A DNA stretch of 64,000 bases from Clostridiales bacterium (GTDB taxonomy: Bacteria; Bacillota; Clostridia; Saccharofermentanales; Saccharofermentanaceae), in NCBI GenBank assembly GCA_017451265.1, contig JAFSPU010000004.1, positions 60,576-124,575 on the forward strand. Direction: 5' to 3'. The number at the start of each line of letters is the position of its first letter. Position 1 is the first letter of the stretch. The notes beneath the pieces were generated by a model. It saw only the letters and a list, made by a program, of their open reading frames with translations. It did not search any database and was not told the DNA's origin. The translations under genes were made by a program, and so were the position numbers. Of the stretch, positions 41,846-55,142 are shown piece after piece.

Positions 41846-44200
41846 TTATGCCTTCTTGTCGTCATCCTCGCGGATAGCTCTTCTTCTGATCTTACCGGAA
41901 ACTGTCTTCGGGAGTTCGTCTACGAACTCTACGATACGGGGATACTTGTAAGGCGCTGTCTTTGCCTTAACGTATTCCTGGATCTCCTTCTTCAGTTCCT
42001 CAGTAGGCTCTGTGCCCTTAACGAGAGTCATAGTAGCCTTAACGACGATTCCTCTTACGCCCTTCGGGTCAGGTGCACCTGTAACAGCACACTCGAGTAC
42101 ATAAGGGAGCTCCATGATAACATTCTCGATCTCGAAGGGTCCGATACGGTAACCGGAAGACTTGATGACATCGTCTGTTCTTCCGACGTACCAGATGTAA
42201 CCGTCCTCATCCTGCCAAGCAGTGTCGCCTGTGTGGTACCAGCCGTCATGCCAAGCGTCCTTGGTGAGCTCGGGTGACAGATAGTACTCAAGGAAGAGTC
42301 CCTTCGGGTGATACTTCTGTGTGTTGATGCAGATTTCGCCTGTTTCACCGGGCTTGCACTCCTTGCCGTCAGGGTCAAGGATCTTAACCTCATACAGAGG
42401 ATTCGGACGGCCCATGGAACCGAGTCTGATACCGGAGCCTACGAGGTTTGCGATAACGAGTGTTGTCTCTGTCTGGCCGAAGCCCTCCATGAGACGGATA
42501 CCCGTAGCTTCCATGAAACGGTTGAATACCTCAGGGTTCAGAGCCTCACCTGCTGTAACAGCATACTTGAGGGAAGAAAGATCGTACTTGGAAAGATCTT
42601 CCTTGATGAAGAATCTGAACATCGTAGGCGGAGCGCAGAATGTGGTGATGTGGTGCTTAGCGAACATGGGGAGGATCTCTTCAGCCTTGAATCTGTCGAA
42701 GTCGAAAGTGAAGACAGGAGCCTCGCACAGCCACTGTCCGTAGAGCTTGCCCCAGAGAGCCTTACCCCAGCCCGTGTCGGAGATGGAGAAGTGCAGGCCG
42801 TTAGGGTCTACGTTCTGCCAGTACTTTGCTGTTGTGATGTGACCGATGGCGTACATGTAAGAGTGCAGAGCCATCTTGGGGTAGCCTGTGGTACCGGAGG
42901 TAAAGAACATTACCATGGGGTCGTAACCGCAAGCGTAGTCAGCGGGACGCTCGAATGTGTCGGGGAAGTTCTTGAACTCCTCGTTGAAATCGTGCCAGCC
43001 GGGTCTGCTGCCGTTGCACAGGATGAGTGTGGACAGGCCGTAAGCAGCTGCAGCCTTCTCTACCTCATCGGCGGCGTCGTCATCTGAAGTGCAGACGATG
43101 GCCTTAACGGAAGCAGCTGAGAATCTGTACTCGTAGTCCTTGTCACGCAGCAGGTGGGTAGCAGGGATAGCTACGGCACCGAGCTTCTCCAGACCCATCA
43201 TGCAGAACCAGAACTGGTAGTGGCGCTTCAACACGAGCATTACCTTGTCGCCCTTGCCGATGCCTAAGGACTTGAAGTAGTTTGCAGTCATGTTGGAGTA
43301 CTTCTTGATGTCTGCGAAAGTGAAACGCTTCTCTGTAACGCAGTCCTTGGCAACCCAGAGCATGGCGAGCTTATCGGGATTCTTGTCAGCGATGGCGTCA
43401 ACGCAGTCGAAAGCGAAGTTGAACTTCTTGCACTCGGGCACGTTAACATCGACATCAACAAGATGTCCGTTCTCGTCGAGGATGCCGTTTAAGTACTTGG
43501 CGTAGATGGGATCCTCGAGCTCGGCAGCATCGACATTAGTCATGCTGTCAGTCTTAATCTCTGTCTTATAAGGAGGAATGTAGTCCTCGTTCTTGTCAGC
43601 GAGCTTGGGGTCGATGATGATGGCGTAGAACTCGCAGTCCTCACCGCCTACAGCGAACTCAGCGTGAGGTGTCTCAGGGTCGAAGTAGATTACATCACCT
43701 TCGTGGAGAACCTCGAAGGAGTCACCGAGCATGACCTTAAGGGAACCTCTTACTACGATGTTCATCTCCTGGCCGCCGTGAGTAACGAGCTTATAAGGCG
43801 GGTTCAGAGCCTCGTCGGAATAAGGGAGGATGACGCGGTAAGGCTCGCACATCTTGTTCTTGAATCTTGAAGCAAGACGCAGGTACTTCGTCTGGGAGTC
43901 AGCACGTCTTACGATCGGGCGTCCCTGTCCTCTTCTTGTTACTGAGTACTCAGTAAGTGAAGGGGAGAATCCTTCGAGAATGTCAGCGATGTCGACCTTG
44001 GCGAGGTTAGCGAACTTGTAGCAGAAAGTGAAGCTGAAGTCTTCCTTTCCTTCCTCGTAACGCTCATACTCCTCGGGTGTGAGTTCCATTTTCGCAGCAG
44101 CTTCCTCGAGTGAGAGACCCATGTCCTGTCTTAAGGACTTAACTCGGCCTGCGACTTCAAGCAGCTTAGCTTCGACTTCGTTGTTTAAGTTCTCTGCCAT
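41846..44200 (-). CDS. HTH-cupin-acyl-CoA synthetase fusion (AMP-forming carboxylate-CoA ligase)
   Basis: A 784-residue three-part protein. Residues about 15-75 form an XRE-type helix-turn-helix (VKSLRQDMGLSLEEAAAKMEL). About 125-190 is a cupin (GSLKVMLGDSFEVLHEGDVIYFDPETPHAEF). From about 240 onward it is an acyl-CoA synthetase: FFTSGTTGYPKMA (P-loop A3, about 435), EGFGQTETT, WYHTGDTAWQDEDGYIWYVGRTDDVI, and the catalytic Lys region TVSGKIRR. The ligase part resembles medium/branched-chain acyl-CoA synthetases (MbcS-like). The start at 44200 follows GGAGGT; an upstream frame extension runs through the T-box terminator and is not coding. A T-box leader precedes it, so amino-acid starvation probably induces it. 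Confidence 0.88.
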   Translation of the reverse strand: MAENLNNEVEAKLLEVAGRVKSLRQDMGLSLEEAAAKMELTPEEYERYEEGKEDFSFTFCYKFANLAKVDIADILEGFSPSLTEYSVTRRGQGRPIVRRADSQTKYLRLASRFKNKMCEPYRVILPYSDEALNPPYKLVTHGGQEMNIVVRGSLKVMLGDSFEVLHEGDVIYFDPETPHAEFAVGGEDCEFYAIIIDPKLADKNEDYIPPYKTEIKTDSMTNVDAAELEDPIYAKYLNGILDENGHLVDVDVNVPECKKFNFAFDCVDAIADKNPDKLAMLWVAKDCVTEKRFTFADIKKYSNMTANYFKSLGIGKGDKVMLVLKRHYQFWFCMMGLEKLGAVAIPATHLLRDKDYEYRFSAASVKAIVCTSDDDAADEVEKAAAAYGLSTLILCNGSRPGWHDFNEEFKNFPDTFERPADYACGYDPMVMFFTSGTTGYPKMALHSYMYAIGHITTAKYWQNVDPNGLHFSISDTGWGKALWGKLYGQWLCEAPVFTFDFDRFKAEEILPMFAKHHITTFCAPPTMFRFFIKEDLSKYDLSSLKYAVTAGEALNPEVFNRFMEATGIRLMEGFGQTETTLVIANLVGSGIRLGSMGRPNPLYEVKILDPDGKECKPGETGEICINTQKYHPKGLFLEYYLSPELTKDAWHDGWYHTGDTAWQDEDGYIWYVGRTDDVIKSSGYRIGPFEIENVIMELPYVLECAVTGAPDPKGVRGIVVKATMTLVKGTEPTEELKKEIQEYVKAKTAPYKYPRIVEFVDELPKTVSGKIRRRAIREDDDKKA

Positions 44201-44247
44201 TTTGTTACCTCCGTGTTTTCCGGCATTTTTACTGACGCCGAGGCAAT

Positions 44248-44512
44248 AAAAAAGCCCCAACGTTCCTCGAACGTTGAGACGAATTACCGTGTTACCACTC
44301 AACTTGTGATCCGTATATAGATCACCACTTCAGGTTCCTGTAAACCCTATGCCTTAACGCGGCCATACGGATGCGGTCTACTCGAAGTTTTACTTCATTC
44401 GGCACATCAGCTCGGAAGCGATAGTCACTTGGCAGTTTCTGTTGTCGGGATCTCAGCATCCCCGGCTCTCTGTGTACATCAACAGCCGGACCTTCTTCGT
44501 CACAGCCTTTTG
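44248..44512 (-). ncRNA. T-box riboswitch leader
   Basis: Read on the minus strand. A stem I region has CTGTGACGAAGAAG, the AGAGAGCCGGGGATGCTGAGATCCCG distal part in two pieces, and CGCTTCCGAGCTG. The T-box sequence TGAGTGGTAACACGG lies near 44290-44304, and the terminator CAACGTTC/GAACGTTG with GGGGC and TTTTTT at 44248-44276. The antiterminator can form with TTGAG/CTCAA. It overlaps nothing coding and directs into the acyl-CoA ligase gene. The specifier codon lies within AAGTGACTATCG (plus about 44421-44432); ATC (Ile) fits best, because specifiers usually end in C. That choice is uncertain. Confidence 0.85.
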
Positions 44513-44528
44513 GATATAAAACACTGCA

Positions 44529-44557
44529 ATAATAACCCCCGTGTAATTGCTTGTCAA
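44529..44557 (-). promoter_or_regulatory. Consensus promoter for the T-box transcript
   Basis: On the minus strand TTGACA (plus 44552-44557), a 17-bp spacer and TATTAT (plus 44529-44534). Transcription should start near 44521, just before stem I. Apart from the T-box and this promoter, the 456-bp gap holds only a short AT-rich stretch ahead of the next gene. Confidence 0.75.
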
Positions 44558-44656
44558 CTGCATTTTGTTTACACGACCTTAACATTCTAGATATGTGAAG
44601 ATAAAAAATAACTAATAAAATAATAGTATCTGAGTTTATGTTTAAGAGGTAACCGT

Positions 44657-54940: not shown

Positions 54941-54953
54941 AAAAAACAACTCC

Positions 54954-55093
54954 TTCCATCCGGACTTTAACCGTCGGCCGCGAAGTCTCATCGCGTCAGT
55001 CCCGTCATAAGATTTAACGGGAGTTGCGGGCTTACCTTTCTGCTATTGTCTGAAGGCTCACCGCCGGTGGGGACTTACACCCCGCCTTGGATT
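54954..55093 (-). ncRNA. FMN riboswitch (RFN element)
   Basis: Read on the minus strand, the conserved RFN blocks are in order: AGGCGGGGTG, AAGTCCCCACCGGCGGT, AAGCCCGC, GCCGACGGTTAAAGTCCGGATGG. Closing stem P1 (ATCCA/TGGA) ends next to the ribU ribosome-binding site AAGGAG. No terminator lies between it and ribU, so control is probably at translation. FMN should repress ribU. The 320-bp gap ahead of ribU contains this element and the repeat at 55143-55268. Confidence 0.95.
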
Positions 55094-55142
55094 CTGTGTG
55101 TGATTATAAACTCAGCCTAGATAGTTTTGCAATAGATTTAGT

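Follow-up and report, generated by a model that had tools for sequence, protein, structure and literature searches.

The DNA analysed in this study (the window) is a 64,000-nucleotide stretch of contig JAFSPU010000004.1 from a Clostridiales bacterium of the family Saccharofermentanaceae. A ligase locus was found on its minus strand, with a promoter, a leader, a ribosome-binding site and a frame of 784 residues following in this order; all coordinates given for the locus refer to that strand. We regard it as likely that the leader is an isoleucine (Ile)-specific T-box attenuator controlling a fused helix-turn-helix (HTH)-cupin-acyl-coenzyme A (CoA) ligase, which would activate 2-methylbutyrate for isoleucine synthesis by reductive carboxylation and transamination. 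The idea that such a ligase feeds 2-methylbutyrate into isoleucine was put forward in a preliminary description of the window and is supported at the sequence level by the ATC specifier, the kinship of the ligase to the solved structure 3ETC, Ile T-boxes on ilvA and ileS, a valine (Val)-type paralog, and the missing ilvC and ilvA genes.

The T-box leader claimed in that description was confirmed by covariance model. Positions 44272–44512 matched RF00230 over its full length (model positions 1–219) with 75.1 bits and an E-value of 1.7e-16. The score is below the gathering score of 93 bits, and the leader was found when Rfam was searched at an E-value threshold; a search at the gathering threshold missed it, which was not counted as absence. 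The same T-box was recovered in a search of the whole genome with RF00230. In 14 control genomes, weak matches (E ≤ 1) were seen in 7, some of them presumed to be free of T-boxes, and matches over the cut-off in 2; the E-value of the window match is far outside the range of the weak control matches.

Stem I carries the specifier codon ATC (Ile) at 44420–44422, with GACT on its 5′ side and GCTTCCGAGC on its 3′ side, as judged manually from the covariance alignment together with the sequence. The UGGN bulge of a T-box pairs with the 3′ end of the tRNA. In the window, the covariance alignment and sequence place this bulge at 44294–44297 as TGGT, the expected partner being a tRNA 3′ ACCA (discriminator A). 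The window shares the T-box core TGGTAACACGG with its closest kin; most other loci have TGGTACCGCGG. From the alignment and a comparison of stems across leaders, an antiterminator with outer stem GTTGAG/CTCAAC was placed at 44273–44303. The terminator of the preliminary description is also present: a terminator scan and fold energies located it at 44248–44280, with a 12-bp stem (44280–44254) followed directly by T6 and with its 5′ arm in common with the antiterminator. The predicted energies were −7.8 kcal/mol for the antiterminator and −16.5 kcal/mol for the terminator, and GTCTCAAC is common to both, such that the two structures are mutually exclusive, as in a T-box with a UGGN bulge. The fold energy of the whole leader was unexceptional (z −1.60; 6 of 100 shuffles equally good). 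Upstream, a sigma-70-type promoter, TTGACA-17-TATTAT, was located at 44529–44557. Its near-consensus sequence (11 of 12 matches) agrees with the preliminary description, but the scan gave 2 promoter-like sites against 2.0 in shuffles, and the promoter alone is not significant. A ribosome-binding site, GGAGGT, is located at 44207–44212.

The same leader was sought upstream of homologous ligases, represented by the best 80 of 198 relatives from one genome-contig scan. A T-box core was located at most 160 bases from the start codon in 54 of these 80 loci. An alignment of 54 leaders was built from the window and 53 of the 54 core-bearing loci, L038 being omitted for its short leader. All 54 carried a T-box with the specifier ATC (52 read by pattern, L089 and L090 by eye), as had been guessed for the window, and the same codon was read in 29/29 loci of the family, from genomes partly the same as those of the aligned leaders. 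In 57 of 63 leaders, a CTCA-type partner preserved all six outer antiterminator pairs, and the last pair varied among G-C, A-T and T-A; in the remaining 6 the crude search picked another partner, and two Val leaders outside the 63 were off-pattern. Those ligase leaders that were scored by covariance model mostly stayed below 93 bits like that of the window, while a distant leader (L110) exceeded this value with 113.3 bits. DNA matching the window leader was detected in 66 of 82 genomes of the family, mostly adjoining the ligase, with some matches elsewhere or short. The 82 genomes comprise the window's own genome (69.5% complete) and 81 others at least 85% complete.

The fusion protein (784 residues, 41846–44200, ATG at 44200) was assigned from its open reading frame and from Pfam, NCBIfam and structure matches. 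Four Pfam domains scored over their cut-offs: an XRE-type HTH_3 (residues 20–73, 43982–44143; 28.5 bits against a cut-off of 23), Cupin_2 (residues 140–194, 43619–43783), the AMP-binding adenylation domain (residues 270–628, 42317–43393), and AMP-binding_C (residues 690–770, 41891–42133). The preliminary description was thus correct in placing an XRE domain, a cupin and a ligase in one chain of this length. L197, which belongs to a different genus of the family, has a fused ligase frame of 836 residues, with an insert between its two matched parts.

The nearest solved structure is 3ETC (MacsMa of Methanosarcina acetivorans), which matched window residues 254–781 with 675 bits and an E-value of 7.4e-202. 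W483 of the window protein is the counterpart of MacsMa Trp259, and W461, W478, K480, C522 and G575 are the counterparts of Trp237, Trp254, Lys256, Cys298 and Gly351, which we take to be further acyl-pocket residues. The protein alignment contained 75 rows, obtained by translating the window and 79 loci (L051 left out) and dropping the 5 of these 80 with fewer than 740 residues. Over the rows compared (49 Ile, 4 clostridial Ile, 12 Val and 24 Ruminococcus), W461, W478, K480, W483, C522 and G575 were identical, the sole exception being C522Y in 1 of the 49. With homology over the full length of 3ETC and a kept acyl pocket, the ligase is of the MacsMa type, and by analogy it may share the substrate preference. 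As described in the part of PMC10455477 available, MacsMa prefers 2-methylbutyrate, and Trp259 has a role in its acyl pocket. The earlier label 'MbcS-like' is right as to superfamily but too loose, as the score with the NCBIfam MbcS equivalog NF047394 was 424.7 bits, below the cut-off of 850, compared with the strong match to 3ETC.

Relatives within the genus also carried T-boxes with the specifier ATC on other genes for isoleucine, upstream of ilvA in 5 loci (L182, L190, L192, L194, and L195) and upstream of ileS in 2 (L180 and L181). Over NCBIfam cut-offs, L182 is a threonine ammonia-lyase and L180 an isoleucine–tRNA ligase; L181 starts with the same residues as L180. The nearest relatives have ilvB-like/ilvA pairs (L183, L184, and L185) that gave no T-box match, and neither did the ilvA stretches L191 and L193. 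In the window's own genome, three other T-boxes were found, preceding a TrpB-like gene (L001, specifier TGG), the acetolactate synthase large subunit gene ilvB (L002, GTC) and trpE (L003, TGG), with specifiers read by eye and genes over NCBIfam cut-offs. As these read Val on ilvB and tryptophan (Trp) on the TrpB-like gene and trpE, specifiers appear to follow pathways in this genome. The ligase T-box is the only Ile T-box found there, in an assembly that is 69.5% complete.

A ligase match at E 1e-100, unfused kin included, was present in 81 of the 82 genomes among the matches listed. Genes scoring over the cut-off were found for ilvA in 10/82 and for cimA in 1/82, with neither in 71/82, and ilvC was found in 20/82 and not found in 62/82; the ilvC search detected the gene in 14/14 known genomes. 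Without ilvC, neither ilvA nor cimA leads to isoleucine. Judged on ilvA/cimA and ilvC alone, the classical isoleucine route (no ilvC, or neither ilvA nor cimA) is missing in 72/82 genomes, and in 55 of the 62 with at least 90% completeness and at most 5% contamination. VorB was found in 78/82 (over the cut-off in 75), and that of the window's own genome, a 3-methyl-2-oxobutanoate:ferredoxin oxidoreductase subunit (NF005507), scored 547 bits against a cut-off of 399. An acid-activating ligase under isoleucine control together with a branched-chain 2-oxoacid oxidoreductase would be an obvious bypass. In G063 and G067, ilvA is preceded by VorB at a distance of about 2 kb, and in L192 the ilvA T-box follows a gene that resembles a 2-oxoacid:ferredoxin oxidoreductase gamma subunit (NF006323, 118.5 bits, cut-off 235). 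In L192 and L194 the order is Vor genes, Ile T-box and ilvA, with two putative isoleucine routes adjoining. The window's own genome also has two indolepyruvate ferredoxin oxidoreductase alpha subunits over the cut-off (L187 and L188), a hint of a parallel route from aryl acids to aromatic amino acids.

A second fused ligase, 55–59% identical to the window protein, was present among the matches listed. This Val-type paralog has its own T-box, with the specifier GTA in 12/12 loci examined (L196 and L200–L210). In a quick tree of 118 rows, made without bootstrap, the 12 Val rows formed one clade (support 100), separate from the main Ile clade of 49 rows (support 99), and 4 further clostridial Ile rows were placed near the Val and Ruminococcus clades; two rows (L220 and L226) are antisense frames on a very long branch, leaving 27 true unfused rows. 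ilvC was not found in any of the 12 genomes with a Val-type ligase, and among the matches listed this ligase occurred in 0 of 20 ilvC-bearing genomes (Fisher p 0.033, not corrected for kinship). The substitutions G479A and L482M, which adjoin K480 and W483, distinguish the Val rows (12/12) from the Ile rows (49/49). As a pocket change accompanying the Val specifier they are suggestive only, because both also occur in a few Ruminococcus rows and 40 other positions separate the two sets under the same 95% rule. The Val-type ligase probably acts in the same manner on isobutyrate for valine.

What the sequences show directly, namely the T-box with its specifiers, the family of the ligase, and which genes co-occur or are missing, can be joined in the following scheme. 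With charged tRNA-Ile, the leader would terminate. When isoleucine is short, the ATC specifier would pair with the anticodon of uncharged tRNA-Ile and the TGGT bulge with its ACCA end, which would stabilise the antiterminator and allow the ligase to be made. The ligase would convert 2-methylbutyrate, the substrate that we infer for it and that amino-acid-fermenting neighbours may supply, to 2-methylbutyryl-CoA. The 2-oxoacid:ferredoxin oxidoreductase of the VorB operon, presumed to run in the carboxylating direction, would then form 3-methyl-2-oxopentanoate by reductive carboxylation, and a putative transaminase would yield isoleucine. For the lineage as a whole, we lean towards the view that in these rumen bacteria T-boxes control duplicated isoacid ligases (Ile with 2-methylbutyrate, Val with isobutyrate), that salvage replaces a lost ilvA/ilvC pathway, and that the specifier switched with the acyl pocket after duplication, so that the specifier would read out the substrate.

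Several observations weigh against this interpretation. The 26 of 80 ligase loci that have no T-box core comprise L051, which starts inside the gene, L086, and 24 loci of a Ruminococcus clade (L062–L085); the same fusion is thus found in that clade with no core in 24/24 loci. Covariance searches of 13 of these 25 (the Ruminococcus clade and L086; including L067, L072, and L074) gave no T-box match. One member of the clade, L075, is on a contig labelled Alistipes, perhaps wrongly binned. Among the matches listed, 50 of the 62 ilvC-less genomes have no Val-type ligase. Full-length cimA-like proteins below the cut-off are present in 22 genomes of other genera, three of which (G024, G026, and G027) also have ilvC, and counting such proteins as cimA lowers the number of genomes missing the classical route to 69/82 and 52/62. 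A first set of 23 genomes has ilvA over the cut-off in 8 and cimA in 2; it overlaps the set of 82 (G001/G048 and G002/G068 share ilvA coordinates), and the counts of the two sets were therefore not summed. VorB was not found in 4/82 genomes, including G031, which is 93% complete and has both ligases. The window's own genome has ilvC, and the close relatives G042, G048, G062, and G068 have ilvA in 3 of 4 and ilvC in 4 of 4. In the own genome ilvA was not found, in an assembly only 69.5% complete. A strict need for the acid in this lineage was considered and is unsupported, given these ilvA and ilvC counts. Because the closest relatives mostly keep ilvA and all keep ilvC, the window's lineage may not depend on this route; the acid is perhaps a cheaper option rather than a requirement.

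Two other explanations of the Ile T-box were weighed. 2-Methylbutyrate may be salvaged as a primer for anteiso branched-chain fatty acids, the T-box then serving membrane lipids and not amino-acid synthesis; it would turn salvage on because a cell starved of isoleucine loses its usual supply of 2-methylbutyryl-CoA. Priming would need this same product, and in the part of PMC10026030 available, MbcS of Staphylococcus aureus activates 2-methylbutyrate and isobutyrate for fatty-acid priming. We consider this improbable, with the same ATC specifier standing on ilvA and ileS, Val-type paralogs present (among the matches listed) only in genomes with no detected ilvC, and specifiers agreeing with the established function of the controlled genes in the part of a 2008 T-box survey available (PMC2494555); the lipid and amino-acid uses of 2-methylbutyryl-CoA are not exclusive. 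It is very unlikely that the main substrate is another acid, such as isobutyrate, isovalerate, propionate or an aryl acid, with the Ile T-box acting as a broader response to amino-acid starvation. Ligase identity leaves the substrate unfixed, and MacsMa adenylates C3 to C8 acids, according to the available part of PMC10455477, but ATC is constant in the Ile ligases while the paralog clade has GTA, and the remaining T-boxes of the own genome (Val on ilvB, Trp on the TrpB-like gene and trpE) track pathways. Isoleucine synthesis from 2-methylbutyrate remains the preferred reading. Two findings named beforehand in the preliminary description as contrary to it, the lack of a covariance match and a specifier and substrate range with no link to an amino-acid precursor, were looked for as far as sequence allows; instead, a covariance match exists, and the Ile specifier precedes a ligase that, among solved structures, is closest to an enzyme preferring 2-methylbutyrate.

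The HTH-cupin part was examined for the second, product-sensing control that had been proposed for it, and in that form the proposal found no support. Although both domains are genuine and conserved, the recognition-helix stretch is acidic in 75/75 homologues (the window and 74 loci), where its net charge lies between −2 and −6, and no operator could be shown. By eye, the recognition helix was also acidic in unfused HTH-cupin proteins; in two solved XRE relatives (1y9q and 9k3w), which were aligned, counted by hand and used as the only comparison, its charge was 0. Because of this acidic helix, and in the light of so small a comparison, DNA binding by the fused HTH as a second layer of control is rated as possible but doubtful. 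Alignment of leaders and promoters, without a motif search, revealed no conserved operator, only an AT-rich TGTAAACAAAA upstream of the −35 in the closest relatives, and a GTGTAA-N22-TTACAC repeat in the window was dropped as a candidate operator as it was not kept, by eye, in the closest relatives. In 29/29 further loci of the family (L211–L239), HTH-cupin and ligase are adjoining separate frames, a split version of the fusion, and no T-box match was obtained in these loci at E 0.05. This side-by-side arrangement argues that HTH-cupin and ligase act together. It is also what a regulator-enzyme pair would look like and, with HTH_3 and Cupin_2 over their Pfam cut-offs, fits a BirA-like bifunctional enzyme-repressor in which the HTH would repress its own promoter, with the cupin as sensor of the acid or of its CoA ester. 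Such a role is compatible with the isoleucine reading, but the helix charges and the lack of a visible operator make it rather unlikely. Weak manganese-riboswitch matches below the gathering score were seen on the strand opposite the ligase in three of the split loci (L212, L236, and L237). Elsewhere in the window, a flavin mononucleotide riboswitch was detected at 54944–55098 on the minus strand (87.3 bits, over the gathering score).

If the reading is true, a waste acid released by neighbouring cells could serve this bacterium as starting material for isoleucine. The tRNA-reading switch singles out a candidate gene for acid activation in rumen isoleucine synthesis and suggests its physiological purpose, and it is relevant to amino-acid cross-feeding and to the reasons why isoacids nourish rumen communities. 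The acyl-CoA ligases form a large family with poor annotation, whose members could have their substrates assigned from specifier codons. The Ile and Val enzyme versions with matching T-boxes make the link testable, with a built-in control.

Like the transcription-attenuating class of T-boxes (RF00230), the window leader has a Stem I specifier, a bulge, an exclusive antiterminator and terminator, and a full-length model match; it differs in controlling a carboxylate-CoA ligase and not a tRNA synthetase, classical biosynthetic enzyme or transporter, and in scoring below the gathering line. MacsMa resembles the window protein over the whole ligase part, with the acyl pocket kept, but it is archaeal and its solved chain has no HTH-cupin part. 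S. aureus MbcS is of the same superfamily and, in the available part of PMC10026030, takes 2-methylbutyrate and isobutyrate; its role there is fatty-acid priming, and the window ligase falls short of its family model (424.7 against 850 bits). As cited in the part of PMC7356843 available, rumen bacteria form isoleucine from 2-methylbutyrate (Robinson and Allison 1969) and valine from isobutyrate (Allison and Peel 1971), and the available part of PMC2812497 proposes the 2-methylbutyrate-to-isoleucine route for Methanobrevibacter ruminantium. The conversion and type of habitat are the same as proposed here, and these parts name neither an activation gene nor T-box control. Among titles and abstract beginnings of the open-licence literature, no report was recognised that couples a T-box with such a ligase, acid or pathway, or describes an HTH-cupin-ligase fusion, and the main text of the 2008 survey (PMC2494555) does not mention acyl-CoA or CoA synthetases. 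The T-box itself is ordinary and the enzyme family known; within the open-licence literature searched, what appears new is the coupling of the T-box to the ligase and the Ile/Val duplication.

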